From Falsiroseomonas frigidaquae (GTDB lineage Bacteria; Pseudomonadota; Alphaproteobacteria; Acetobacterales; Acetobacteraceae): DNA of 64,000 bases. Location of the stretch: NCBI RefSeq assembly GCF_012163145.1, contig NZ_JAAVTX010000001.1, forward strand, positions 806,001 through 870,000, read 5' to 3'. Positions 19,710 through 39,924 of the stretch are shown here, one piece after another. How positions within the stretch are numbered: position 1 is the stretch's first letter; each line of letters begins with the position of its first letter. Under the pieces are notes generated by a model, which saw only the letters and a list, made by a program, of their open reading frames with translations, ran no database searches and was not told where the DNA came from. Both the position numbers and the translations under genes were made by a program.

Positions 19710-19872
19710 ATGACTTTGTCTATGACTGACAGTCCGCCCAAGGTGGAGGTCATGGCCTCCGTCCAGCGCCGTCGGAGATGGTCGGCGGCCGAGAAGATGC
19801 GCATGGTCGAGGCGACTTACGCGCCGGCTGCCTCGGTGTGCTCGGTGGCCCGCCAGCACGGGGTGAAGGCGG
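19710..19872 (+). pseudogene. Truncated IS transposase OrfA (helix-turn-helix N-terminus)
   Basis: About 54 codons match the N-terminus of the HTH protein of IS3/IS66-type elements: RRRRWSAAEKMRMVEATYAP, then SVCSVARQHGVKA. The usual continuation (NQLFxWRR) is missing. Instead the frame runs straight into tyrosine-integrase sequence, giving a chimeric 156-codon frame (19710-20180). I could not identify the terminal inverted repeats of the IS. Confidence 0.65.
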
Positions 19873-20631
19873 CGCCCAGCGACATCGCACTGGCCATGTC
19901 GCTGCTGCTTTACACGGTGCAGCGCCCCTCGGATGTGCGGCACATGACCGCGGGGCAGGTTCGGGAGATGCACGACCGGCTCTGGCTCGTGCTGCGCCAG
20001 GAGAAGACGAACGAGCTGGTTGCCGTGCCCTGCCACCGCGCTCTCGAAGGCCCCCGCGGAGTCGTCTTGCCGAAATCCAGAGCGCGGAGGAGCCCGTTCA
20101 GGAAAACCCCGGCGCGCAAGCCAGCGGTCCAGCCTGCTCCTGGTGCCTGGTCCGGACGGGCGCGCCTGGACTCAGCGTAGCTTCGCCACCGCCTAGAACA
20201 GGGCACTGAGGCGCGCCAACCGCCAGATCGCGCGCGACGCCCTGCGCGGGCAGCCGCTCCCTAAGCCAAAGCGGGCGCGACAGCGGGAGGCGGCGAAGCG
20301 GGCGAGCCGCGCGCGCCTGCTCAGCGGCCTGCAGGGACGGGACATCCGGCGGACCGGCATGGTGCAGCTGGCTCTGGCCGGCGCGACGATCCCGCAGATC
20401 GCGGCGCTCTCAGGCCAATCCATCGCGGAGACCTCTGTGCCGCGCCGGGCCGACATCGCCCTGGCCGGTGTCGAGGCGTGGGAGTTGCGGGAGCGGGATG
20501 TCCCGTCGTCCCTGGCCGAGGACCTAAAGCAATCTCCCGGAAGCAACGAACACAGCCCGAACCAAAATCAACAGAAGAACGCAGCCCAACAGGCCACCAA
20601 CCCGAAAAATGCAGATTTAACAGGGGTATAG
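19873..20631 (+). pseudogene. Tyrosine-recombinase integrase, degenerate
   Basis: Pieces of one phage-type integrase appear in order but in different frames. They are ALAMSLLLYTVQRPSDVRHM (with the first catalytic Arg); LLVPGPDGRAWTQRSFATA followed by an in-frame TAG at 20194-20196; then ALRRANRQIARDALRG; and finally MVQLALAGATIPQIAALSGQ at 20359-20420. The N-terminal DNA-binding part is replaced by an IS fragment, and indels lie between about 20,050 and 20,130. The C-terminal frame stops at 20629-20631, immediately before the tRNA-derived 47-bp repeat. That is the usual place of an integrase relative to its attachment site. It is not functional as it stands. Confidence 0.8.
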
Positions 20632-20678
20632 TGGTGCCGACACCCGGGATTGAACCGGGGACCTACTGATTACGAATC
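20632..20678. repeat. 47-bp direct repeat of the tRNA-Thr 3' half (attachment-site copy)
   Basis: Identical, in the same orientation, to 34039-34085. It covers the CCA end, acceptor 3' strand, T arm and the anticodon arm through the anticodon, and then diverges. The D arm and 5' acceptor strand are missing, so it is not a tRNA gene. This is the expected footprint of integrase-mediated insertion into a tRNA 3' end. Confidence 0.92.
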
Positions 20679-20807: not shown

Positions 20808-21734
20808 TCACACCGGCACGGGTACAGTCCGCAGGAAAGTTGTTAAGCAAGAGGGGGCATCCGCTATTGTCGTGAGTGTGCGGATTGTATCAGTCCGCGG
20901 ATTGAACTTCATCTTGACATGCTCAGCGAATATCTGAGGTTTCCTTGTCCCCCTATCGGTCCTTAGCGCATCAAGAAAATCGATAAATAATCGAAATAGA
21001 ATTTTCCCGCGCCAGCGCTGGAGTGGTTCTAGTTTCTCAAATTCATCTCGACTCTTGGCGATTTCGTCTGCCGACAGTGGAGACGCCTTGGGAATGGCTA
21101 TCAGCAACTCCTCGGAATCCACAATCCACTTGATCTTGAAATTCTGCAGCCTGAGCCGGGGCGAAATCACCTCATCGAGCGGATTAACTGAGACTTGGTT
21201 TTTTACGCAATAATAAATTATTTGGTTGAGATAGCCAAGCTTTTCCTTATAATCTTCAATGAATTCAGAAAAAATCTTCTTGATTTTAATGAGATCATCC
21301 ACTCCTTCAGCACCATGGCACCGATACTCGCCCTGGAGTAGCGCTTCCAGCGCGACATCAGAGACCAAGATGTTTTCAAATGAGTAGGTGGGCGTTACCC
21401 AAATTTTGCGATGCGGCTCACGACCGCGGAGATCATCATAATCTCGGTCTACAAAAAACCAAACATCATCGATCGAAAGCTGTCGATTTTCCTCAACTAG
21501 ATCAACTAGAGTCAAAACGTTACTCTTGCCTTTACAATTAAAAAATCCTATCGCTCGTGAAATCTGCGAGTGTACCTTTGACACAACCGTCTGCAGAAAA
21601 GTAACATCATCATGACCCTCCACAGCAAACACGTACGGCTTTTCTGACTTCCCTCTAAACTTGATGTAACTTAGGAGGATGGCTTCTGCAGCAGACGCGG
21701 CAGCGCTCAGCTTGTCGACGCGAGAAATTTCCAT
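20808..21734 (-). CDS. ariB: AriB-like DUF4435 (TOPRIM-type) effector of a PARIS-like defence pair
   Basis: 308 residues. YVFAVEGHDDVTFLQ places the conserved Glu at residue 39, and VWFFVDRDYDD (91-101) gives an Asp pair, the acidic constellation of TOPRIM/OLD-type nucleases; the region matches DUF4435. In characterised PARIS systems AriB is held by the ATPase AriA and, once released by a phage anti-restriction protein, acts as a tRNA-cleaving toxin. Here it follows the ATPase gene with a gap of about 10 bp on the same strand. The base composition is far more AT-rich than the surroundings, indicating acquisition from elsewhere. The function is inferred from domain pairing, not shown. Confidence 0.75.
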   Translation of the reverse strand: MEISRVDKLSAAASAAEAILLSYIKFRGKSEKPYVFAVEGHDDVTFLQTVVSKVHSQISRAIGFFNCKGKSNVLTLVDLVEENRQLSIDDVWFFVDRDYDDLRGREPHRKIWVTPTYSFENILVSDVALEALLQGEYRCHGAEGVDDLIKIKKIFSEFIEDYKEKLGYLNQIIYYCVKNQVSVNPLDEVISPRLRLQNFKIKWIVDSEELLIAIPKASPLSADEIAKSRDEFEKLEPLQRWRGKILFRLFIDFLDALRTDRGTRKPQIFAEHVKMKFNPRTDTIRTLTTIADAPSCLTTFLRTVPVPV

Positions 21735-21744
21735 CGCCAGCGCC

Positions 21745-23172
21745 TCAGATAAGGGACAGGGTTTTGTGGCGACGGACAGTTATCGGCCCCGCAAAAGGCC
21801 TTAGCTCGTTTTTAAAAATAAACGGAGAGTGGGTGATGGCGATAAGCTGCGAACAACTGGGCGCGCGCGCTATGTCCGGCAGAAATTTTTGCTGCCACTC
21901 CATAGACAGCGATAGCTCAGGTTCATCGATCAGAACGATAATTTTCTGCTCAGGCTCCAAGTAGAGGCGAGCAAAGATACTGATAATTTGTTTTTCACCG
22001 GACGACAATGCCTCAAGCGGCAGCGTTCCGCCGGTATAAAAATTAACAACCCGCGCCTCCGCAGAGGCCTTGTCGAACTCGAATTTCTTTTCGCTGCCGT
22101 CCTCATCCCAGTACGAGTTAACGGCGCGAATGAAATTCTCAATACGAGCTTCTCGATCTTGGGTCGAGATATATGTTTGCAGAAGCTGGTTTAAGAAACT
22201 CTTGAGGTAGATATTATCTTCGTTGTTGATTTCACCACTATTAATCAGACGTTCAATTCGCTGTTTTGTCTCCGGATTGTCACGCCCAAGCCGCCCCAAA
22301 ACCACCTGCAAAGACGCAGCGTCGATCGGGCTTGTGCTTTTTATGTCCTGCTTATAATGACCAAAGAGGAGGTCGTCGAGCGTACGTCCATTTATCGAAG
22401 AAAACGCCTGAACCGTGGATCTCCTGATTTCTTCCGCCATTTCGAATAATTTAGACTCTACGTCCTGCAATCCGAAGTGAATGAGCTGATCAGTAGCCCA
22501 CGAGTTCTTGTATATCCTACGATGGCGCTGCGAAGTAGTCCTGAATTGGTATTCAGGCAAGGAAGCCTCGATGCGCCGGTACGTAGGGAGATAAAGGACT
22601 GTGTAACCCGCCAGAGCCGCCGCAACCTCCGATGAGAATTTGAGAAATTTCTGACGGCGATCAAGATACATAGTTTGGATTTTTTTATCCAGAATGTCAT
22701 TTAAGGCAGATTTTATATACTGCGGAGGGATGCGCATCTGCACAATATCTCGGGCGAAGTATTTAGTTTTTGAAACACTATTTTCTTCGCCGTCGGCTAT
22801 GGCCGCTATCAGTTCTTCAGCCTCTAATTTGGTAGGTATTGGAAGATCCAGTTTAAGCCAACGCGCAGGTTGCAGAACCTTGTCGTACTCCTGCGAAGCA
22901 ATTGAGAATTCGTCCCTTCTTTTCTTCCAAGAGTGCCCGCCAATTTCAAGCTGCAGAGTGGAAAATTCCATTGAAACTAAAGAACTGTGGTTACCGGTCA
23001 GAACAGCATGAAGAGCATTGAATAGTGTTGTTTTTCCGGCACCGTTTTCGGCAACAAGAATTTTTACGTGGCTGTCAGTTGAAAACTCGATATCTTTGTA
23101 GCCATTTGCGAGTTCTAGAGCGAATCTCCTGATTAACGGCTGCTGACCCGGGGAGGGGCTGGTAAGGGACAT
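21745..23172 (-). CDS. ariA: AriA-like AAA/ABC-type ATPase of a PARIS-like defence pair
   Basis: 475 residues from the ATG at 23172, which has GGAGG seven bases upstream; the frame is open to 23322 but without a ribosome-binding site. It has SMC/OLD-type ABC ATPase motifs: Walker A AENGAGKTT (41-49), signature LSSGEKQ (389-395), Walker B IIVLIDEPELSL (about 411-422) and the switch His in AITHSPF (about 446-452). Proteins of this kind paired with DUF4435 are the AriA sensors of PARIS, which form a multimeric scaffold that captures AriB. The gene lies downstream of phage tail genes on the same strand. Other AAA+DUF4435 pairs exist, so the subtype is uncertain. Confidence 0.75.
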   Translation of the reverse strand: MSLTSPSPGQQPLIRRFALELANGYKDIEFSTDSHVKILVAENGAGKTTLFNALHAVLTGNHSSLVSMEFSTLQLEIGGHSWKKRRDEFSIASQEYDKVLQPARWLKLDLPIPTKLEAEELIAAIADGEENSVSKTKYFARDIVQMRIPPQYIKSALNDILDKKIQTMYLDRRQKFLKFSSEVAAALAGYTVLYLPTYRRIEASLPEYQFRTTSQRHRRIYKNSWATDQLIHFGLQDVESKLFEMAEEIRRSTVQAFSSINGRTLDDLLFGHYKQDIKSTSPIDAASLQVVLGRLGRDNPETKQRIERLINSGEINNEDNIYLKSFLNQLLQTYISTQDREARIENFIRAVNSYWDEDGSEKKFEFDKASAEARVVNFYTGGTLPLEALSSGEKQIISIFARLYLEPEQKIIVLIDEPELSLSMEWQQKFLPDIARAPSCSQLIAITHSPFIFKNELRPFAGPITVRRHKTLSLI

Positions 23173-23349
23173 GAAAAATCCTCCACGGACCAATGCGTTA
23201 CAACAACCATATTGGGTGCAGCGCTCGAATTTCGCTTTTACGCCAGCTAACACGTCGTGAACAGGATACGACGGCGCCATGAAAGACGGCAACCGTGGGA
23301 CCTTGATTGATCGGACAAACACCTTCCTGGTGCTCGCTGGTCACGCAGG

Positions 23350-23586
23350 CTAGCCTTCAGTTAGTCTCGTGTGCTGCAACCCTGCCGCGATTTCTGCAGT
23401 CAGCGCCTCGGCCAACGGGAAGTCCGCACCCGCCTCTCCCGCTGGTTCGGCTGGAAGCAGGCTGGACGACAGGATGTTCCCCTCGTCGTCCAGCACCAGC
23501 ACAGCGCGCACCACATGCGCCCCGCTGATGGTGCCATCCGGCCGCCAGCGGATCAGGACCTCATAGGGTCGAACAACGGTCTGCAT
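23350..23586 (-). CDS. Small phage-type hypothetical protein
   Basis: 78 residues with AGGAGG eight bases before the ATG. The N-terminal half reads VVRPYEVLIRWRPDGTISGA, then HVVRAVLVLDDEGNIL: beta strands with an Asp/Gly turn, of the kind encoded next to tail-fibre genes. There is no named domain. It follows the tail spike by 11 bp on the same strand and probably belongs to the same late operon. Confidence 0.6.
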   Translation of the reverse strand: MQTVVRPYEVLIRWRPDGTISGAHVVRAVLVLDDEGNILSSSLLPAEPAGEAGADFPLAEALTAEIAAGLQHTRLTEG

Positions 23587-23597
23587 CGGCCAGCCTC

Positions 23598-25508
23598 CTA
23601 GCTCACGATCGCGCGGTCGGTGACCCGGCGCCAGTTGGTGCCGTCCGAGAAGGCGAGCACCGCGCCGCCGCTCTCGTTGTTCACATAGGCGGTCTGCCCG
23701 CCCGGATTCGGCGTCGGCACAGTCGCCACCGTGTAGCCAGGGTGCTGCAGCCGGCTCACCGCCCAGAGGTGCGACACGTTCACCCGCAGGCTGGAATCGC
23801 GCTGAACAGACAGCGCAGCGCCCAGCGCCGCCCCGGCATCGCTGAAGGCCTCAACCACCAGCAGAGATCCGGAGTTGGAGCCAGCTTCCGACGTCGTGTC
23901 CCGCGCCAAGCGCCAGCGCAAACCACCGGCGCGACGGAACTGCAGCTCCGCGGTCTGGGCTGCCTCGCTGTCCAGATTAACCAGCGCCGGCACGCCAGGT
24001 GGCTGGGCACTGCGCAGCTGGCCAACGTCGGTGACGCCCTGGTTCCGGTGCTCGAAGACGACCAGGCCGGCGGAGACGCCCGGCACCTGGGGTATGCCGG
24101 AGCCGAACTGCGCGCTGCCGGAGAAGATCAGCGGCCCGGCCAGGAAGCTGGCGGCGATGCAGTTGGTGGTGCCGTCATTGCCAGAGATCGCCGGGTTGGC
24201 GTTGGTCGCCCCCCAGACAAAGACGCCGGACAGCCGGTTGCGATTGGCCCCGGCGCCGGCCACGGCCGAGTCATCCGCTCGGATGCAGCTGTTCACCACC
24301 TCGATGTCGCAGCAGAAATCGTTCCCGAAGGTGTAGCCCGACAGGCGCAGCCCCCGCGCCGCGTTGCCCGCCGCCAGCAGCCCCGTGCAGAACTGCACCC
24401 CGAAGAGCTGGATGGCGTCCCCGATGCCGCACCCGCCATTGTTGGCGACGATGTTCAGCTGGCTCTGCAGGACGCCGTTCATGCGCAGCGCCGCGATGCC
24501 GGCGGAGCTGACGTTCTGGACCACCAGCCCCGTGAAGCTGCAGGAATTCAGGAAGTCCGGGTACCGCGTGCCGTCCCAATCCTGGCCGAGCTGGGCGCCG
24601 ATGCCGGTGGTGTTGCAGCGGATGCCGAAGTCCCGGAAGTGCCAGAAGAAGGCCGCGCCGGTGCTGTCCTTGATGCGGAACTGCGGCGTGCCGCTGCAGC
24701 TCCGCACATCGATGATGCTGGTCTGCCCGCCGCAGCCGAACATGACCCCGCCGCGGCGCGACAGGAAGGCGCCGAGGCCACCCAGGTCGAGATCCAGCCT
24801 GGTGCCGCTGTAGATGAAGCGGCCGGGCGGCAGGAAGGCGGGCCGCCCGGTCAGCAGCCAGGCCAGGAACCACAGGTCGATCGCGGCCGTGTCGTCGGCC
24901 ACCCCATCGCCGACGCCGCCGAAGTCATGCAGGTTCAGGATGTCGCCGGCGCGCTGCGCCAGGCTTCGCGCGGCGGTCGTGCCGTCGGCCAGCACGGTGT
25001 CCGCGCTGCGGTCGAGCACCGGATAGACGATCGGCTTGCCGAAGGCGTCGAAGCCCAGCAGCTTCCCCGCACGCTGCGCCAGGGGCGGCAAGGTCGGATC
25101 CAGGTTCGGCTCGATCGCTGGGATGCTGATGGCGCGGCCGACGTCGCGCGCCTGCTGCTGCAGCACGATGTAGAGCCGGTTGAAGTCGGCATTGAGGCCC
25201 GCGGCCGGGAGGTCTCCGCCGTCGCTGAAGGCGCTGGTCCGGCCCGCCGGCATGGCGCTTTCCAGCAGCAGGACATCGCCGGCCAGGGCGCCGCTGGCCA
25301 GGACGACGGCGCCGCCGGCCTGCTCGCCGGCGCCGGTCACCGCATAGTCCACGCCCAGCGCCAGCGTCACGGTCGCCCCCGCCCGGGTCCGCACCACGCG
25401 GATGTCGCTGGCGGCATAGAGCGGGAAGTCGAAGGGGAACACCGTCTGCGCGGCGCTGGCCGTGAACATCTCGCGCCGGTCATTGGCGGGAATGGTGCTG
25501 ATGGTCAT
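23598..25508 (-). CDS. Phage tail spike/fibre with pectate-lyase-like beta-helix
   Basis: 636 residues from the ATG at 25508, which overlaps the upstream stop by 4 bp. The N-terminal roughly 130 residues look like a virion-attachment domain (FPFDFPLYAASDIRVVRTRA, then LNADFNRLYIVLQQQ). The next part begins with NLHDFGGVGDGVADDTAAID, the classic start of a pectate-lyase-3/tailspike beta-helix. A C-terminal domain (AYVNNESGGAVLAFSDGTNW) is often seen at the end of tail fibres. It would bind or degrade a surface polysaccharide of the host. An ORF frame continuing upstream to 26066 is a shadow of the neighbouring gene. Confidence 0.85.
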   Translation of the reverse strand: MTISTIPANDRREMFTASAAQTVFPFDFPLYAASDIRVVRTRAGATVTLALGVDYAVTGAGEQAGGAVVLASGALAGDVLLLESAMPAGRTSAFSDGGDLPAAGLNADFNRLYIVLQQQARDVGRAISIPAIEPNLDPTLPPLAQRAGKLLGFDAFGKPIVYPVLDRSADTVLADGTTAARSLAQRAGDILNLHDFGGVGDGVADDTAAIDLWFLAWLLTGRPAFLPPGRFIYSGTRLDLDLGGLGAFLSRRGGVMFGCGGQTSIIDVRSCSGTPQFRIKDSTGAAFFWHFRDFGIRCNTTGIGAQLGQDWDGTRYPDFLNSCSFTGLVVQNVSSAGIAALRMNGVLQSQLNIVANNGGCGIGDAIQLFGVQFCTGLLAAGNAARGLRLSGYTFGNDFCCDIEVVNSCIRADDSAVAGAGANRNRLSGVFVWGATNANPAISGNDGTTNCIAASFLAGPLIFSGSAQFGSGIPQVPGVSAGLVVFEHRNQGVTDVGQLRSAQPPGVPALVNLDSEAAQTAELQFRRAGGLRWRLARDTTSEAGSNSGSLLVVEAFSDAGAALGAALSVQRDSSLRVNVSHLWAVSRLQHPGYTVATVPTPNPGGQTAYVNNESGGAVLAFSDGTNWRRVTDRAIVS

Positions 25509-28500
25509 GGCGTTGCGCCTCCGATGGCGGCGGGCAGGCTGGGCGCGCGCTCCGGCGAGGTCTCGCCGGGCGCCCACCAGAAGCGCTGGTTGGTCTGGTC
25601 GATGCTGCGGCGCTCGAGCTCGCGCCAGCGCTGCGCCGCCTTGGGATCGAGGAGGTACTGCAGCCGGTCCCAAAGCAGCCGGTCCATGGCCAGGCGCCCA
25701 TACCAGAGGCTGCTGCCCGGCGTGTTCTTCTGGACGAAGCGCGCCAGCTCGCGGCCGAAATTGGTGTCCTTGTCCTCGACCAGGCCCTGCAGATTGCCTC
25801 CGGTCAGCTTGGCGATGTCGTCCATCAAGCCGCCGGTCGGCCCGCCGAAGCTGGTCATCCAGAAACCGCGATCGGCCCGGTTCAGGCCGGCGTTGAGGAA
25901 GTCGCCGAGGATGCCGGCGCCACCGCCCTGGAAGAAGGCGGCGCCCCAGAAGCTGGGCGAGGTCATGTCGCGCGGATCCTTCCCCTGCGCGATCGCCTTC
26001 AGCTGCATGGCCACGGCGCCCATCACCGTGAGCGACACGGCCGTGGTCGCGAGGTAGCGCCCCCAATCGCCGCCGCGGATCTGCTCGATACCGCGCATCA
26101 GGTGGCGCGACATCATGGCGACGGGGAAGGATTTGTATTGCGCGGTGGCGCGGCGGAACTCGCCGCCGGCGGTCCCGGGGCGGGAGCTGCCCAGCATCAC
26201 CGCCCTCTCCAGGTTGCCTGGCTCCACCACGGCGAAGCTGGTCTCACCCTGGATCATCTCCAGAAGGCGGGACGTGGCCTGGCGGGCTGCAGCCTCGGCG
26301 GCTGGCTCTACTTCGGCGGAACCACGCCCCGGCGCCGCAGCTCCTCCATCACCCGCTTGTGCCCCTTCGCCCGTTCCTCGCGGTCGATCGCCTCGAATTC
26401 CGCGTGGGTCGGGTTCGGCTGCGAGGATGTCGGTTCCGTCGAGGAAGCGGGCCGGTTGGCCTCTTTCGACGTCGGTGCTGTATCGGGCATAGGTCGCGGC
26501 CTCTCCTTTGATGGCCTCGAAGTTCGCGCCAGGTCGATCGCCGACCTGGTTCACGATGTAGTCCAAGGGAACGTAGCGGCCGGTTTCGCGAAAGCGGTTG
26601 ATCGCGCGGTTCACCGCCTTATCAAGCGGGAGATCGGCAAGGACTACATGGATCATGTAGCCTGCCTCCTTCAGCTCTTCAACATCCTGGCGCAAACCGG
26701 CCAGGTCCCGGCCAACCATTGGCAGGGCGACGCGGTCGCCGCGGATCTTAGCCTCCTCCAGGATCTCGGCGGCCAGGCGCGAGCTCTCCCGGTGCACGGC
26801 ATTGGCGCCGATGCCGCCGCGAAACTCCGGAATGCGTGCCTTGATGTCGTCGGCGTCCACCAGCAACGCTCCCATGCGCTGCGCCAGCGGCTCGATGACG
26901 GTGGACTTCCCGGAGGCCGGTGCGCCGAGAACGATCCAGGCTTGGCGGTCCTGCCTGATCTCCGGCACCTGCGCACGGCGCTCGGCCTCAACCTCCGCCT
27001 TCCACTGCGCCCGCTGCGCCTGGCGCTCGGGGGTCTCGATGGCATGCGTCGGCGGATGCCGCGCCGGGTCCAGCGCCTCCTGCTCCACCCGGGCGATATC
27101 CTCCGGCACCGGGTCACCGCGCTGCCAGGCGCCGGCTGGCGGTTCCGCCTGCGCCAGATCCTCACCACGCTGGCGCCACCCCTCGCCGGCTGCCAGCTCC
27201 TCCGGCGACCTCGGCGCGGGCGGCTCCGCCGGTCGCCCCACAATCTGCTCCGGCAGGATGAAGCGAACCCCGTCCTGATCCCAGACGCCGGCGGTGCGGA
27301 TGATGTCCCAATCCTCGGCCGTGATGCCATACCGGGCAAAGCTCTGCTGCAGCTCCGGCTCCAACTGGTCGAGCGTCCGGCCGGCGCGGTCTGCAAGGTG
27401 GGCGGAGAACTCCATGCCGAAGGCCCATTTCGCCGCCTGGGTATGCGCCGACATGCCGGAGACGCGCATGGTGAAATCGGCGATGCGGCCCGGCAGGTCG
27501 CGGCCGACGATCTCCGCCTGGTGACGGGTCATCCCCAGCGCCCGCTGCGTCCAGCCCTGGGCGATCAGGCCCAGGCGCACGGCCGTCTTGCGGTCCTCGG
27601 CATTGGCCGGGTTCAGCAGGGAGACGTAGCGCCGCAGCACATCCGTCACCGGCAGGCCGTTCCAGTCGGCCGCCTTCTGCAGGGTGGCGAAGTCCGTCAC
27701 GCTGGACAGCACCGCGCTGCCGAGCTGCGCGCCCATCAACCAGCTGCGGATATTGCGGAAGGTGGTGGCGACGCCCTCATTCACTGGGCTGTTCACCTGG
27801 CCGGTCGTGTGGTTCCAGAGATTGCCGAGGAAGTGGACGGCGGTATCGCTCGCCTCCGCCTTGCGCGCCTGGTCCATCAGGACGCGCGCCTGGTGCACCG
27901 GGTTCGGGCCGAGGATCTCCAGCATGGCGATGTCACGCGCCATGCCCTTCACATGCCCGGTCAGCAGCTCGAAGAGCCCGGCATCGCCGACGCCGAAGCG
28001 GTCGTTGAACTTCAGGTAGGCCTCGGCCGAGGTCCATTCGAAGGCGCGCGGCTGCGCCCGGCGATTGGCCAGCGCCACGCCGCCGGGCTGCCCCGGAACC
28101 AGGTCGGACACGCCATTGCTGCTGATGCTCTGCCAGGCGTCGTCGATCACGGCGGCGGCGCGGTCGGCGGCCAGCGGGTCGCCGGTATCGAAGTCCACCA
28201 TGCGGAGATCTCCGCGGGCGATGGCGTCCTGCATGAAGGCGGTCCAGTCGCCCCGCCCTGCCCGCTTAACCAGGTCGCGGTCCCATTCCTGCGGCAGGCG
28301 CCAGGTGTCACGCCGCGGCAGGTTGCCGCCGGCGGCGTTGAAGCGCTCCAGCAGGCTGTCCGTCACGTCGTTCCACGCGCGAGCAAAGCCGCCGGCGGCC
28401 GCGTCACGGGTGTCGCCATAGAGCGCCGAGACAAAGCGCCGCAGCCCAGGCAGGTCCTGCTTGAAGCCCAGCGCCTTGGACCGGTAGGCGTCCAGCAGGT

Positions 28501-28858
28501 TCACCAGCCGGGCATGGGCGCCGGCCTCGATGGCGGCGGCACGGCCCTCGATGTTGGAGTGGCCGGCCAGGCCATAGGCGTCCCGCGCGAAGATCGAGGC
28601 GACGCCCGCGGCAAAGCCACGCGGATGGGCGCTGGCCTGGTCGAAGGTCCGGGCCGCCGCGATGACGCGCAGCGCCACCTGGCGCTTTCGCTGCGCGGCT
28701 GCGGCCGCCATCTCCTCCGCCGCCCTGACCATCGCCTCGCCCTCGGCCACGCCCTTGTCCAGAAGCTGCTGCACGCGGGCGCGGGCATTGGCGGCGGTCG
28801 CCTCCGAGATCTTCCCGGCGGCCACGGCATCGGCCAGGCATTTGTCAGCCCGCGTCAT
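25505..28858 (-). CDS. Large polyvalent virion-like phage protein with embedded zeta-type kinase domain
   Basis: 1,117 residues from the ATG at 28858 (GGAGGGG upstream; 4-bp overlap with the preceding gene). Residues 1 to about 560 are long helices like internal/ejected phage proteins (MTRADKCLADAV, RQVALRVIAAARTFDQASAH). After a proline-rich linker, residues about 635-815 form a P-loop domain: IVLGAPASGKSTVIEPLAQ near 640, LLVDADDIKARIPEF, and a late NRFRETGRYVP; this is the zeta-toxin/polynucleotide-kinase pattern. The C-terminal roughly 250 residues again look virion-like, with a hydrophobic stretch VSLTVMGAVAMQLKAIAQG. Such multi-domain phage proteins are known as polyvalent proteins and may be injected with DNA. 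Confidence 0.7.
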   Translation of the reverse strand: MTRADKCLADAVAAGKISEATAANARARVQQLLDKGVAEGEAMVRAAEEMAAAAAQRKRQVALRVIAAARTFDQASAHPRGFAAGVASIFARDAYGLAGHSNIEGRAAAIEAGAHARLVNLLDAYRSKALGFKQDLPGLRRFVSALYGDTRDAAAGGFARAWNDVTDSLLERFNAAGGNLPRRDTWRLPQEWDRDLVKRAGRGDWTAFMQDAIARGDLRMVDFDTGDPLAADRAAAVIDDAWQSISSNGVSDLVPGQPGGVALANRRAQPRAFEWTSAEAYLKFNDRFGVGDAGLFELLTGHVKGMARDIAMLEILGPNPVHQARVLMDQARKAEASDTAVHFLGNLWNHTTGQVNSPVNEGVATTFRNIRSWLMGAQLGSAVLSSVTDFATLQKAADWNGLPVTDVLRRYVSLLNPANAEDRKTAVRLGLIAQGWTQRALGMTRHQAEIVGRDLPGRIADFTMRVSGMSAHTQAAKWAFGMEFSAHLADRAGRTLDQLEPELQQSFARYGITAEDWDIIRTAGVWDQDGVRFILPEQIVGRPAEPPAPRSPEELAAGEGWRQRGEDLAQAEPPAGAWQRGDPVPEDIARVEQEALDPARHPPTHAIETPERQAQRAQWKAEVEAERRAQVPEIRQDRQAWIVLGAPASGKSTVIEPLAQRMGALLVDADDIKARIPEFRGGIGANAVHRESSRLAAEILEEAKIRGDRVALPMVGRDLAGLRQDVEELKEAGYMIHVVLADLPLDKAVNRAINRFRETGRYVPLDYIVNQVGDRPGANFEAIKGEAATYARYSTDVERGQPARFLDGTDILAAEPDPRGIRGDRPRGTGEGAQAGDGGAAAPGRGSAEVEPAAEAAARQATSRLLEMIQGETSFAVVEPGNLERAVMLGSSRPGTAGGEFRRATAQYKSFPVAMMSRHLMRGIEQIRGGDWGRYLATTAVSLTVMGAVAMQLKAIAQGKDPRDMTSPSFWGAAFFQGGGAGILGDFLNAGLNRADRGFWMTSFGGPTGGLMDDIAKLTGGNLQGLVEDKDTNFGRELARFVQKNTPGSSLWYGRLAMDRLLWDRLQYLLDPKAAQRWRELERRSIDQTNQRFWWAPGETSPERAPSLPAAIGGATP

Positions 28859-29964
28859 GCCGCCCCTCCGATGAGGCACAGCATGGCCTGGCCGGCCTGC
28901 TCGCCCTCCGCTTCGGCCTCGTCCAGCAGATCGCGCGCGCCACGCGTGGGCTGCGCCGCGCCGTCGGCAGAGATCTCGCCAACCGGCACCGGCACATCCC
29001 GCTCCGCCGCGATGCGCTGCGCCTCCAGCAGCTCGGCCGTCGCCACCTGCTGCGGCGCCGGGCGGGCGGCGGCCTCGGTCTCGGTCGCCTCGCGGATCGC
29101 GCGCTGGCGGGCGGCCAGGATGTCCACCGCCTCCTCGCCGAAGTCGAAGGCGGCCGCGGGCGCGGCCTCCTCCGCGACGGGTGCTGCGGGCGGCGCCTCG
29201 CGCAGCCGGGCGCCCTCCAGGATCTCCGCCGGGCGCAGCGGCGGCGCGCCGAACAGGTCGCGGCCGGGCGGCTGAACCTTCAGCGCCTCCTCCACATAGG
29301 CATCCAGCCGGGCGGCGATCGCGGCCCGGGCGGCGGTGCGGCGGCTGGGATCGCCCTGGTCGAAGAAGCTGGCCAGCATCTTCTGGCCAGCCTCGGTCAG
29401 CGGCGGCCGGTCCAGATCAGTCTGCAGTAGCAACTCCGGCACAGCCACCTTCAGGCGTCGCGCCTCGTCCAATGTGCGCAGCGCGCCAATGAGGTCGGCC
29501 GTCACATCCATGCCGGCATCCACCTCGCCCGCCATCACGGCCTGGCGCAGCTGCGCCCAGCGGGCGGAGACATCGGTCAGCGCGCCGGCGACGCCGCGCA
29601 GCCCGGCGGTGTCGCCCTCCAGCAGCCGGTCCAGCAGCGGGCCCAGCTCGTCGCCATAGGCGCGCGCCAGCACCGCGGCGCGTAAGCGGGCCGCACCCTC
29701 CGCGGCCAGGCGGCCGTCCCTGGTGATCAGGCTGCCGCGCTCCTCCGGCGTCAGGCGCAACAGGAAGGCGCGGACGAAGCCAGCATTGTCGGCGCTGTCC
29801 ACGTCGCCGCCGCGCCACAGCGGCAGCGCATCCTCCAGCCGCTCCGCATCGGCCCGCGCGCGTTCGCCGACGCCCTGCGCCAGGGTCGCGCGGCCATTGG
29901 CTTCCGCGACGAAAGCGCGGCGCTCCTCCGGCGACAGGGCGCCGATGCGCCGCGAGACCAGCAC
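28855..29964 (-). pseudogene. DdrB-like polyvalent phage protein, N-terminally truncated
   Basis: The readable frame begins with PVLVSRRIGALSPEERRAFV and continues with RAFLLRLTPEERGSLITRDG, then LARAYGDELGPLLDRLLEG. I recognise this as the DdrB-like region that normally follows a ParB-like nuclease domain in phage/plasmid proteins. The ParB part is missing. The nominal start is a GTG at 29964 inside the conserved text, with no ribosome-binding site. Immediately upstream the sequence becomes a DUF3987 gene on the other strand. The stop overlaps the next gene's ATG by 4 bp, so the late operon downstream is intact. The family name is from memory and moderately certain. Confidence 0.55.
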
Positions 29965-29966
29965 AG

Positions 29967-31250
29967 GGTTGCAGGCGCAGCGGGACGTGGCGCTGCCGGG
30001 TAGCGGGCAGAAGCCGTTGACCGGCCTGTTCGTTTCCGTGGCCGAGAGCGGCGAGCGGAAATCCTCTGTAGATCGGGTGGCGCTGGCGGCGGTCTATCGG
30101 ACCGAAGAACGGTGGCGGGGTGAAAAACGGCGCGTTGGTTGATCGCTTCCGGGCCGACCTCGCGGCCCATAAGGAAGCAACAGAACAGATCAAGAAAAAG
30201 GCCAAAGGTGACCGTGGCCTAATCCGCGACAACCTCCTGAGTCTGGGTTCTGAACCGAAGCCCCCGCCGCACCCGATGCTGCTAATCGCGGACCCGACGC
30301 CGGAGGCGCTGGTGCTGCACCTGGCCGAAGGCCGCCCATGGGCGGGTGTGTTCACGGCCGAGGGCGGCGTGCTTATCGGCGGGTCCGCTTTCAACGATGA
30401 AAGCCGGATGCGGACCGGCGCGTTGATGAACACACTCTGGGACGGCGATCCGATCCGCCGCCGCCGGGTGCTGACTGGCGCCACCTTCCTGCCGGGCCGG
30501 CGGTGCAGCGCGCATATCATGATGCAGGCCGTGGTGGCGGACCGGCTGTTCGGTGACGCCACGCTCGACGGCATCGGGATGCTGGCGCGGGTGCTGTTGG
30601 TGGCGCCGGAGAGCACGGCAGGAACCCGCATGTTCAGCACGCCACCCGATGCCTGCCGGGCCACGCTCGACGCCTATAACGACCGCCTGACCCAGCTGCT
30701 GACCCGCCCGCCCGTCACGCGCCCGGACGCATCCGACGTGCTCGACCCGCCCGCCCTGACCCTGACGCCGGAGGCGGAAGCGTTGTGGATCGGGTTCCAC
30801 GACCACGCCGAACGCGCCATCGGTGATGGTGGCGCATGGCGCCCGATCCGCGCCTTCGGTGCCAAAGCGCCCGAGCACGCGGGGAGGCTGGCGGCGGTGC
30901 TCGCGACCTATGCCGACCCGGACGCAATGGAAATCGGAGCCGAGCATGTGGCATGCGGCATAGCGCTGGCGCAGCACTACGCCGCCGAGATGATGCGCTT
31001 GATCGGTGCCGCCAGCGTCACGCCGGAATTGCGGCAGGCGGCGGCGCTGCTGCGGTGGTGGCAGGACCGGCGGGACCCGCAATGCCACCTCGCGCAAATC
31101 TACCAGACCGGACCCGGCGCCATCCGGGCCGCTGCGGCGGCACGCGCTGCGGCTGCTACACTTGAAGATCACGGGTGGCTGCGGCGGTTGCCGGCCGGAA
31201 GTGAGGTGGATGGTGCGAGCCGGCGGGAGGCCTGGGAACTGGTGGCGTGA
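29967..31250 (+). pseudogene. DUF3987 (YfjI-type) mobile-element protein, 5'-truncated and frameshifted
   Basis: The family text starts abruptly with LQAQRDVALPGSGQ, then TGLFVSVAESGERKSSVDRV and ALAAVYRTEERWRGEK, ending at a TGA at 30140-30142. It resumes one base out of phase from about 30,120 with ALVDRFRADLAAHKEATEQI and runs to 31250. Known family features present include PMLLIADPTPEALVLHLAEG and GVFTAEGGVLIGG. The shift lies at a short G/A run near 30,116-30,127. DUF3987 proteins are primase/helicase-associated components of prophages and integrative elements. With its start missing, it is presumably inactive. Confidence 0.75.
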
Positions 31251-33995: not shown

Positions 33996-34038
33996 GCCCG
34001 CTTCGGATCGTTTCAGGCAGCTAAGTCATTGGGAAATA

Positions 34039-34113
<75 letters not shown>

Positions 34114-38643: not shown

Positions 38644-39924
38644 TCAGCCCGCGGCCAGGGAGCGGAGCGCGGCGCGGGCGGCGATCAGCGCCTCCGCCTG
38701 CGTGACCCAGGGCTGCATCGCCGCCTGCGCCGGCGGCGAAAGGCGGCGCAGCGGCGGCAGGCTGCCTTCCAGGTCGCCAGCCTCCAGCGCGCGGCGGGAT
38801 TTTTCGATTTCCGCGGCGGCGGCATCACCCCACAGAACCTCCTCCCCACGCCGCACGGTCACCAGGCTGGAGAGGCGCGAGACGGCGGAATCGAGCACGC
38901 CCTGGCCCTCACGCGCCGGGTCGCTGGCGGCACGGGCGGCGCGGGCCGCATCCTCGAAGGTCAGGCGCAGCCCCGCCTCGGTCGGCGGCGCGGATTCGGC
39001 GAAGCGGGTCAGCGCACCGGGCGGGTCACGCAGCGTGGACAGTGCGCCGCCCAGCGGCTGCCCGGCTTCCAGCGCGGCGCGCAGCTGGTCCAGCGTCGCC
39101 AGGCGGCCGGCGCGGCCTTCCAGCGCGGCGAGGCGCTGCGCCTGGCCTTCCAGTTCCTGGATGCGCTGCGCCTGCGCGTTGATCTCGGCCCGGCGCTCGG
39201 ACAGTGCCGATTCCAGCGCGGAAAGCCGCTCCGTAAGACGGGTCTCCAGGGCGCCGATCCGCTCGCTCGCCTGCGATTGCGCCTGTTCGGCGGTGCCGAG
39301 GCGCGTTGCCAATTCGCGGGCCACGCCCTCGATGCGGGCGGAGCTGGCGGTGGCGCGGGCTTCCTCCTGCCGGATCGCGGCCTCGGCGCGCTGCGCCAGT
39401 CCATCGACGCGCTGACCGAGCGACTCCACCACCGCACGCGGTGCGAGATTCTCCAGCGCGCTCCGCGGCGCGAGGCTTTCCAGCGCGCTCCGCGGCGCGA
39501 GGCTTTCCAGCGCGCTCCGCGGCGCGAGGTCCTCCAGCGCGCTCCGCGGCGCGAGGTCCTCCAGCGCGCTCCGCGGCGCGAGGCTCTCCAGCGCGCTCCG
39601 CGGCGCGAATTCGCTCGTATCCACCGCCGGCCTCGCCGCGGCTTCCCGCGCCGCCTGCTCGGCGGCTGCGAGGCGTGATTCCAGCGGCGCGAGGTCCGGG
39701 GCCGCCCGTCCCTCCAGCGCCGCCAGCCGCGATTCCAGCTCCGCGACCTGGCCGGCCGATGCCGCGTTCGGCGTGCGGGCGGCCTCCTGCGGCAGCGGCC
39801 GGGCCAACAGCCAGATGACGGCACCCACGAGCACGATGGCCGCGACCAGGATGGGCAGGGCGGCCGGGTCCAGGCGGAAGCGGCGGAGCCGCTCGGCGAA
39901 GGAAGGGGGCGGGGTCTGGCTCAT
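38644..39924 (-). CDS. Mitofilin/HemX-like coiled-coil inner-membrane protein
   Basis: 426 residues, AGGAG just before the ATG. One N-terminal membrane segment (LPILVAAIVLVGAVIWLLA) is followed by a long Ala/Glu/Arg-rich coiled coil and a C-terminal helical domain (LSSLVTVRRGEEVLWGDAAA), the usual layout of the COG4223 mitofilin-like proteins encoded between hemD and the HemY_N gene in alphaproteobacteria. Seven copies of a nine-residue repeat (APRSALESL and variants) interrupt the coiled coil near residues 106-168. The function is poorly defined. Confidence 0.82.
   Translation of the reverse strand: MSQTPPPSFAERLRRFRLDPAALPILVAAIVLVGAVIWLLARPLPQEAARTPNAASAGQVAELESRLAALEGRAAPDLAPLESRLAAAEQAAREAAARPAVDTSEFAPRSALESLAPRSALEDLAPRSALEDLAPRSALESLAPRSALESLAPRSALENLAPRAVVESLGQRVDGLAQRAEAAIRQEEARATASSARIEGVARELATRLGTAEQAQSQASERIGALETRLTERLSALESALSERRAEINAQAQRIQELEGQAQRLAALEGRAGRLATLDQLRAALEAGQPLGGALSTLRDPPGALTRFAESAPPTEAGLRLTFEDAARAARAASDPAREGQGVLDSAVSRLSSLVTVRRGEEVLWGDAAAAEIEKSRRALEAGDLEGSLPPLRRLSPPAQAAMQPWVTQAEALIAARAALRSLAAG
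39421..39609. repeat. 27-bp tandem repeat, seven copies, in coding sequence
   Basis: Encodes APRSALESL with E/D/N variation at position 8; the last copy (APRAVVESL) is diverged. In-frame units keep the reading frame, so copy number could vary without breaking the protein. Confidence 0.85.

Follow-up and report, generated by a model that had tools for sequence, protein, structure and literature searches.

A probable PARIS (AriA/AriB) pair of a divergent clade carried by a decayed prophage at a tRNA-Thr gene of Falsiroseomonas frigidaquae

Introduction

PARIS consists of the ATPase AriA and the nuclease AriB; AriB introduces a nick into tRNA between nucleotides 40 and 41, and a hexamer of AriA sequesters AriB. 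The trigger is Ocr or another anti-restriction protein of a phage. Its subtypes, PARIS I and PARIS II, are named after the ATPase model. Here we analysed 64,000 nucleotides of Falsiroseomonas frigidaquae (contig NZ_JAAVTX010000001.1, positions 806,001 to 870,000; hereafter the window, whose first letter is position 1), in which two adjacent genes resemble ariA and ariB. A preliminary description, made from the sequence alone, had read them as a possibly divergent PARIS homologue in an Acetobacteraceae-like host, and the host was named correctly. The pair is probably a PARIS system of a clade distant from the solved structures, acting by the scheme of the E. coli system. This reading rests on the intact adjacent genes, the profile matches, the catalytic residues, the fold matches, the co-inheritance of the two proteins and the position of the pair next to an attachment (att) site.

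In the literature accessible here, what is known of tRNA cutting by PARIS comes from a single E. coli pair. In E. coli AriB, substitution E26A abolishes cutting, R236 is modelled touching the tRNA D-loop, and K60 and K64, both located on a small helix, grip the anticodon loop in the model and are required for defence (PMC12409363). PARIS is found in 5.2% of genomes, and a second tested pair, from E. coli O42 (042), is called a distant homolog (PMC9122126). A Salmonella homologue gave no response to Ocr or to a homologue (PMC11341690). Among the publications listed by the searches, none dealt with this locus or with an Acetobacteraceae PARIS pair, a weak negative since most subscription journals lie outside the coverage.

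Results

The ariA-like gene (21745..23172, minus strand, 475 aa, ATG at 23172) encodes an OLD/ABC-type sensor ATPase, and the ariB-like gene (20808..21734, minus strand, 308 aa) a DUF4435/Toprim nuclease carrying E39, D96, D98, E120 and R242-G243-K244. Both open reading frames (ORFs) are intact, 10 bp apart and located where the preliminary description had placed them, and each has by eye a purine-rich stretch 5' of its start codon. The operon is AT-richer than its surroundings, as had been stated: the two genes have a GC content of 47% and 46%, the window as a whole has 69%, and the phage genes beside them have 71%.

According to the published rule, PARIS is called from at least 32 bits for AAA_15 or at least 27 bits for AAA_21 together with a neighbouring DUF4435 of at least 27 bits (PMC9122126). 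The exact AriA ORF scored 62.5 bits with AAA_21 (cut-off 27) and 49.5 bits with AAA_15 (cut-off 32.1), and AriB scored 77.5 bits with DUF4435 (cut-off 27). Because these thresholds are passed, the pair is PARIS by the published rule, the Pfam releases used here being different from the one behind that rule. With PADLOC, the AriB model matched at 4.7e-23 and the AriA model at 1.4e-33 (114.5 bits; query 21745-23175, one residue more than the ORF), while the best PtuA model for AriA reached 71.6 bits. The profile search that had been proposed as a check on the pair thus recovered both the AriA and the AriB model, and the DUF4435 match is present. In NCBIfam, AriB had no match, and all AriA matches were far under their cut-offs (best 25 listed).

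As reference we took the pair of a P4-like element in E. coli 504838 (L178), whose proteins are practically identical over their full length to the solved AriA and AriB chains (PDB 8ux9, 8v45-8v49). The solved proteins are presumably those of the B185 pair. In AriA of the window, ENGAGKTT (42-49), LSSGEKQ (389-395), IDEPEL (415-420) and H448 confirm the ATPase motifs that had been listed earlier. K47, LSSGE (389-393), D416-E417 and H448 are invariant in the alignment of 35 clade rows, and E417 aligns with E393 of E. coli AriA. AriA therefore has the Walker A motif, signature and Walker B glutamate of the OLD/ABC-type ATPase of PARIS.

The AriB proteins of 78 clade members were aligned with those of the reference pair and two of its kin. 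E39, D96, D98, E120 and R242 of the window occupy the columns of E26, D88, E90, E122 and R236 of the E. coli protein. Conservation in the clade is 77/78 for E39, 78/78 for each of D96, D98 and E120, and 71/78 for R242, so that the acidic set E39 and D96-D98 of the preliminary description holds throughout the clade but for one member at E39. AriB is thus a Toprim effector with the catalytic glutamate and the acidic pair of PARIS. The columns of K60 and K64, however, hold G63 and C67. The catalysis appears to be kept and the K60/K64 grip not, because the catalytic columns match and these two do not; the grip is known for one AriB only and is no part of the published rule. In the predicted structure of the window AriB a strand (62-66) is followed by a three-residue loop (67-69) and a helix (70-82), and K68 and K70 are possible substitutes for K60 and K64.

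The predicted single chains of both subunits match the folds of the solved AriA and AriB, with structural-alignment identities to the E. coli chains of 19-21% for AriA and 14-16% for AriB. Together with the Pfam and PADLOC scores and the catalytic residues, these folds support the earlier identification as a PARIS homologue. The solved E. coli AriB (L178 5348-6274) itself has no Pfam match at E<=0.01 and matches the PADLOC AriB model at 4.6e-9; current Pfam DUF4435 would therefore miss the reference AriB.

Two other families of ATPase systems were considered. The ATPase folds of PtuA of Septu and retrons and of OLD/Gabija GajA are related to that of the window AriA, and OLD and Gabija also have a Toprim domain in common with AriB. 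All of them give lower profile and structure scores than AriA/AriB and have another effector or a fused architecture. A Septu or retron type ATPase with a different nuclease is most improbable here: the partner gene largely contradicts it, the adjacent protein being DUF4435/Toprim, and no HNH partner PtuB is encoded in the adjacent gene, the only place where HNH was looked for. The pair might instead be OLD-like, with the folds of AriA and AriB but cutting DNA, unlike PARIS, as GajA and OLD nucleases are described to do (PMC12409363). We regard this as quite unlikely. The fusion of ATPase and Toprim that marks OLD and Gabija is not found in the pair, which consists of two separate ORFs.

Scans with a five-row AriA alignment recruited 79 loci in genome contigs (best 80 of 252) and 52 in viral contigs. 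An AriB-like ORF lies directly downstream in 75 of the 77 recruited loci whose AriA reached at least 180 bits (exceptions L059 and L083). A quick AriA tree of 115 rows included only pairs with both genes; 79 rows, the window among them and one Pantoea record counted twice, formed one side of a branch (97). These rows come from Pseudomonadota, Cyanobacteriota, Bacillota and Bacteroidota, and also include a Leptotrichia plasmid and a record with Frankia as its title. In a careful tree, built from 50 rows picked from the quick tree, support was 100/100 both for the clade of the window, with 29 rows, and for that of the E. coli reference, with 3. Because recruitment relied on a query resembling the window, the clade size is biased. 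The distances of AriA and AriB are correlated (r 0.88), which indicates common inheritance, and in 2958 of 3003 pairs AriB shows lower conservation than AriA. The best Pfam ATPase model was AAA_21 for 4 and AAA_15 for 7 of the 11 proteins tested in the window's clade, and AAA_21 for 2 and AAA_15 for 1 of the 3 in the other clade, with several margins of about 1 bit or less. The best-scoring ATPase model does not track descent, and the PARIS subtype names may therefore mislead.

Several points weigh against the reading of the pair as PARIS. First, phmmer found no match of AriB to any solved AriB chain, and a 13-row AriB profile reached 8ux9_A only at E 0.16. Secondly, Foldseek with AriB gave no match at E<=1e-3, with OLD chains first and 8ux9_A absent among the 50 matches listed; only a second structural comparison ranked 8ux9_A first. 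Thirdly, AriA also matches many PtuA profiles of PADLOC. Fourthly, grouping the window's subclade (6 rows) with the E. coli reference was rejected by an approximately unbiased (AU) test that was named after the quick tree had been seen (p-AU 0.0012). The AriA of the window thus lies outside the clade that holds the solved E. coli AriA, a narrower sense of PARIS that is no part of the published rule, and the suggestion of a divergent subtype gains support from the same test. Furthermore, the correlation of AriA and AriB distances reflects shared descent and is no proof of contact between the proteins. Finally, the expression of the pair is uncertain because its carrier is decayed.

The carrier was analysed around the tRNA-Thr(CGU) gene, detected intact by ARAGORN at 34039..34113 (minus strand; anticodon arm U36AAUCA41), which serves as the attachment gene. 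Its 3' 47 nt (34039-34085) recur as an exact direct repeat at 20632..20678 (minus strand), 129 bp past the ariB stop, the two copies being 13,407 bp apart. Thirty-one bases of the att repeat match twice in the window, and none would be expected by chance. The tRNA-Thr element proposed earlier is hereby established. The pair is placed between the inner repeat and a phage tail protein or tail fibre gene (23598..25601, minus strand; phrog_1640 tail protein, 6.4e-26). Beyond this lies a gene for a virion structural protein of 1124 aa (25505..28879, minus strand; phrog_684, 3.3e-160) with an internal Zeta_toxin-like domain (53.2 bits). The recognisable late genes end with a structural protein (28855..29964, minus strand) that comparison with homologues showed to be truncated N-terminally: its matches are confined to residues 459-772 in a homologue of 794 aa and to 601-931 in one of 935 aa. 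Further inside the 13.4-kb interval, a DUF3987 ORF (30120..31250, plus strand; 219 bits) matches profile positions 75-363 of 364 and thus lacks the profile start. No integrase was recognised among the scanned ORFs of the interval.

Integrase-like fragments, identified by profiles and by eye, lie just outside the inner att copy (19710..20631, plus strand). The piece at 19710-20180 scored 17.0 bits with Phage_integrase (cut-off 27.1) and 5e-4 with the integrase phrog_1; that at 20359-20631 has no Pfam or PHROG match and is integrase-like by eye. One ORF of this region joins a transposase helix-turn-helix to a weakly tyrosine-integrase-like piece, and the second piece ends at the inner att copy. 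The fragments may be what is left of a different element that used this site. With a late gene truncated and integrase-like sequence confined to fragments lying beyond the inner att copy, the carrier is what remains of a decayed prophage. The earlier view of the pair as cargo behind phage late genes therefore stands as to position and is qualified as to the state of the carrier.

This decay bears on another explanation, that a formerly functional PARIS pair persists only as silent cargo of a dead prophage. The truncated late gene and the fragmentary integrase-like sequence speak for it, as does a broken relative in a metagenome-assembled genome (MAG) of the same family (Acetobacteraceae palsa_925; L086 1445-4103), in which AriA has 405 aa and AriB similarity falls in two separate pieces. 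Against it, both ORFs of the window are intact with conserved active-site and ATPase motifs, and comparison with the same-genus pair gave pN of 0.19 and 0.32 versus pS of 0.87 and 0.79 (nonsynonymous and synonymous differences), an average over the whole divergence with pS saturated. We consider silent cargo unlikely and retain an intact PARIS pair as the preferred reading.

Eleven relatives matched the tRNA and its adjoining gene at length, and nine same-genus stretches among them were compared. In all nine, similarity from the right stops at window positions 34020-34039, the tRNA end, with none further left; beyond it only the 47-bp repeat matches, together with a few distant pieces in two stretches. 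In two of the nine, the sequence available beyond the tRNA is no longer than 2.9 and 5.9 kb. Since similarity ends at the tRNA in every stretch, tRNA-Thr looks like an integration hotspot. In one same-genus genome (G004; L208 2036-2082 and 9664-9709) the tRNA-Thr end occurs twice, the second copy being 89% identical and 7.6 kb away, and for this reason the gene also looks like a recurrent integration site. We had considered that the element might bring a cleavage-resistant tRNA half and dropped this idea: both att copies are identical, and the 47 bp are exact in five of the nine relatives and 89-96% identical in the other four.

A search with AriB in the window's genome and 99 relatives gave matches in three relatives: weak ones in two genomes of the same family and, at 50% identity, one among the 15 same-genus genomes. 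A class-wide draw of 385 genomes, own genome included, returned the own genome only, and in a phylum draw of 398 genomes 34, including the own, matched the PADLOC AriB model. None of 91 pattern matches was confirmed in an AriB single-protein scan of genome contigs. AriB searches gave nothing in phage records and three records in plasmids, and AriA matched eight phage records, none spanning 80% of AriA. The same-genus pair (G001, L003/L009) has 71% AriA and 50% AriB identity and the same gene order; it lies between mutL-like and MBL-fold ORFs (by eye), and unlike in the window no tRNA element was seen there. A viral contig of 12.9 kb holds the closest viral relative (L121 1559-3990; AriA 59-61%, AriB 40% identity, same gene order), next to repressor-like and ParB-like ORFs (by eye). 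A PARIS hotspot in the phage family of the carrier was not seen: the stretches examined from 18 viral contigs that encode a related virion protein contained no ORF resembling AriA or AriB.

Some further features were recorded. Between the tail gene and ariA, the ORF list has a small ORF of 78 aa (23350..23586, minus strand) without a PHROG match at E<=0.01. The Zeta_toxin-like kinase domain occupies residues 643-779 of the virion protein; matches to this protein in related viral contigs are mostly about 2.4 kb or 3.4 kb long, as if only some had the domain. A 27-bp tandem repeat array lies in high-GC DNA at 39383-39635. Other AAA plus DUF4435 arrangements occur among the phylum-draw loci L012-L041: short ATPases, about 355-390 aa long and accompanied by a partner, and single proteins of about 530-560 aa holding both a P-loop and a DUF4435-type match.

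Discussion

The window pair and E. coli PARIS share the ariA-ariB order, the ATPase and Toprim folds, the catalytic acidic set, the R-G motif (R236/R242) and an integrated phage-type element as carrier. They differ in that E. coli AriB has E90 in place of D98 and K60/K64 without a counterpart in the window, in the separate AriA clades, and in the carrier, a P4-like element at ssrA in E. coli and a decayed prophage in tRNA-Thr here. Closer by descent is an AAA plus DUF4435 pair of E. coli B7A (L175; DUF4435 53.6 bits), which falls in the window's AriA clade and occurs in 3 of 5426 E. coli genomes. It is likewise phage cargo, between portal and replication genes of what the annotation suggests is a P2-like phage. 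Its best Pfam ATPase model is AAA_15 whereas that of the window is AAA_21, and host and carrier differ.

By analogy with E. coli, AriA would assemble into an ATP-binding sensor that holds AriB inactive. Binding of AriA by a phage protein, which need not be Ocr, would free AriB, which would dimerise and nick host tRNAs with its two-metal Toprim site (E39, D96, D98). Translation would then stop, and the infected cell would fail before phage release. This scheme is the most likely one here, its anti-restriction trigger and the action of AriB on tRNA being carried over from the E. coli system. The host genome has one match to N6_Mtase, a family that includes restriction-modification methylases, and such a trigger is therefore conceivable.

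The sequence U36AAUCA41 occurs in three of the 44 host tRNAs found, Lys(CUU), Lys(UUU) and Thr(CGU), and is absent from Thr(UGU); the set of 44 is incomplete, as Ala(UGC) and Ile(GAU) are not in it. If specificity were as in E. coli, these three would be the targets, which is uncertain because the K60/K64 grip is lost. That tRNA-Thr(CGU) is one of three bearers among 44 may be chance, and the motif does not show cutting. Given the lack of K60/K64 and the lower conservation of AriB relative to AriA, a different set of tRNAs may well be cut. A further, doubtful proposal is that the clade forms a second PARIS lineage, widespread in bacteria, in which AriB would grip tRNA by a rebuilt loop (C-K-G-K, 67-70) and cut a different set, including in this host tRNA-Thr(CGU), the carrier's own site.

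The pair is ordinary in kind, and its distance from the structurally known branch is its distinguishing point. With its clade (29 of the 50 rows of the careful tree) it represents an independent lineage that has the same catalytic residues and lacks the K60/K64 grip, which makes it useful as a comparison to the solved PARIS lineage. PMC12409363 poses as an open question whether PARIS systems have their tRNA targets in common. The clade has an E. coli member, L175, and so could serve to test this conservation. If a second lineage of this kind is real, a change of effector specificity between PARIS lineages would be directly testable.
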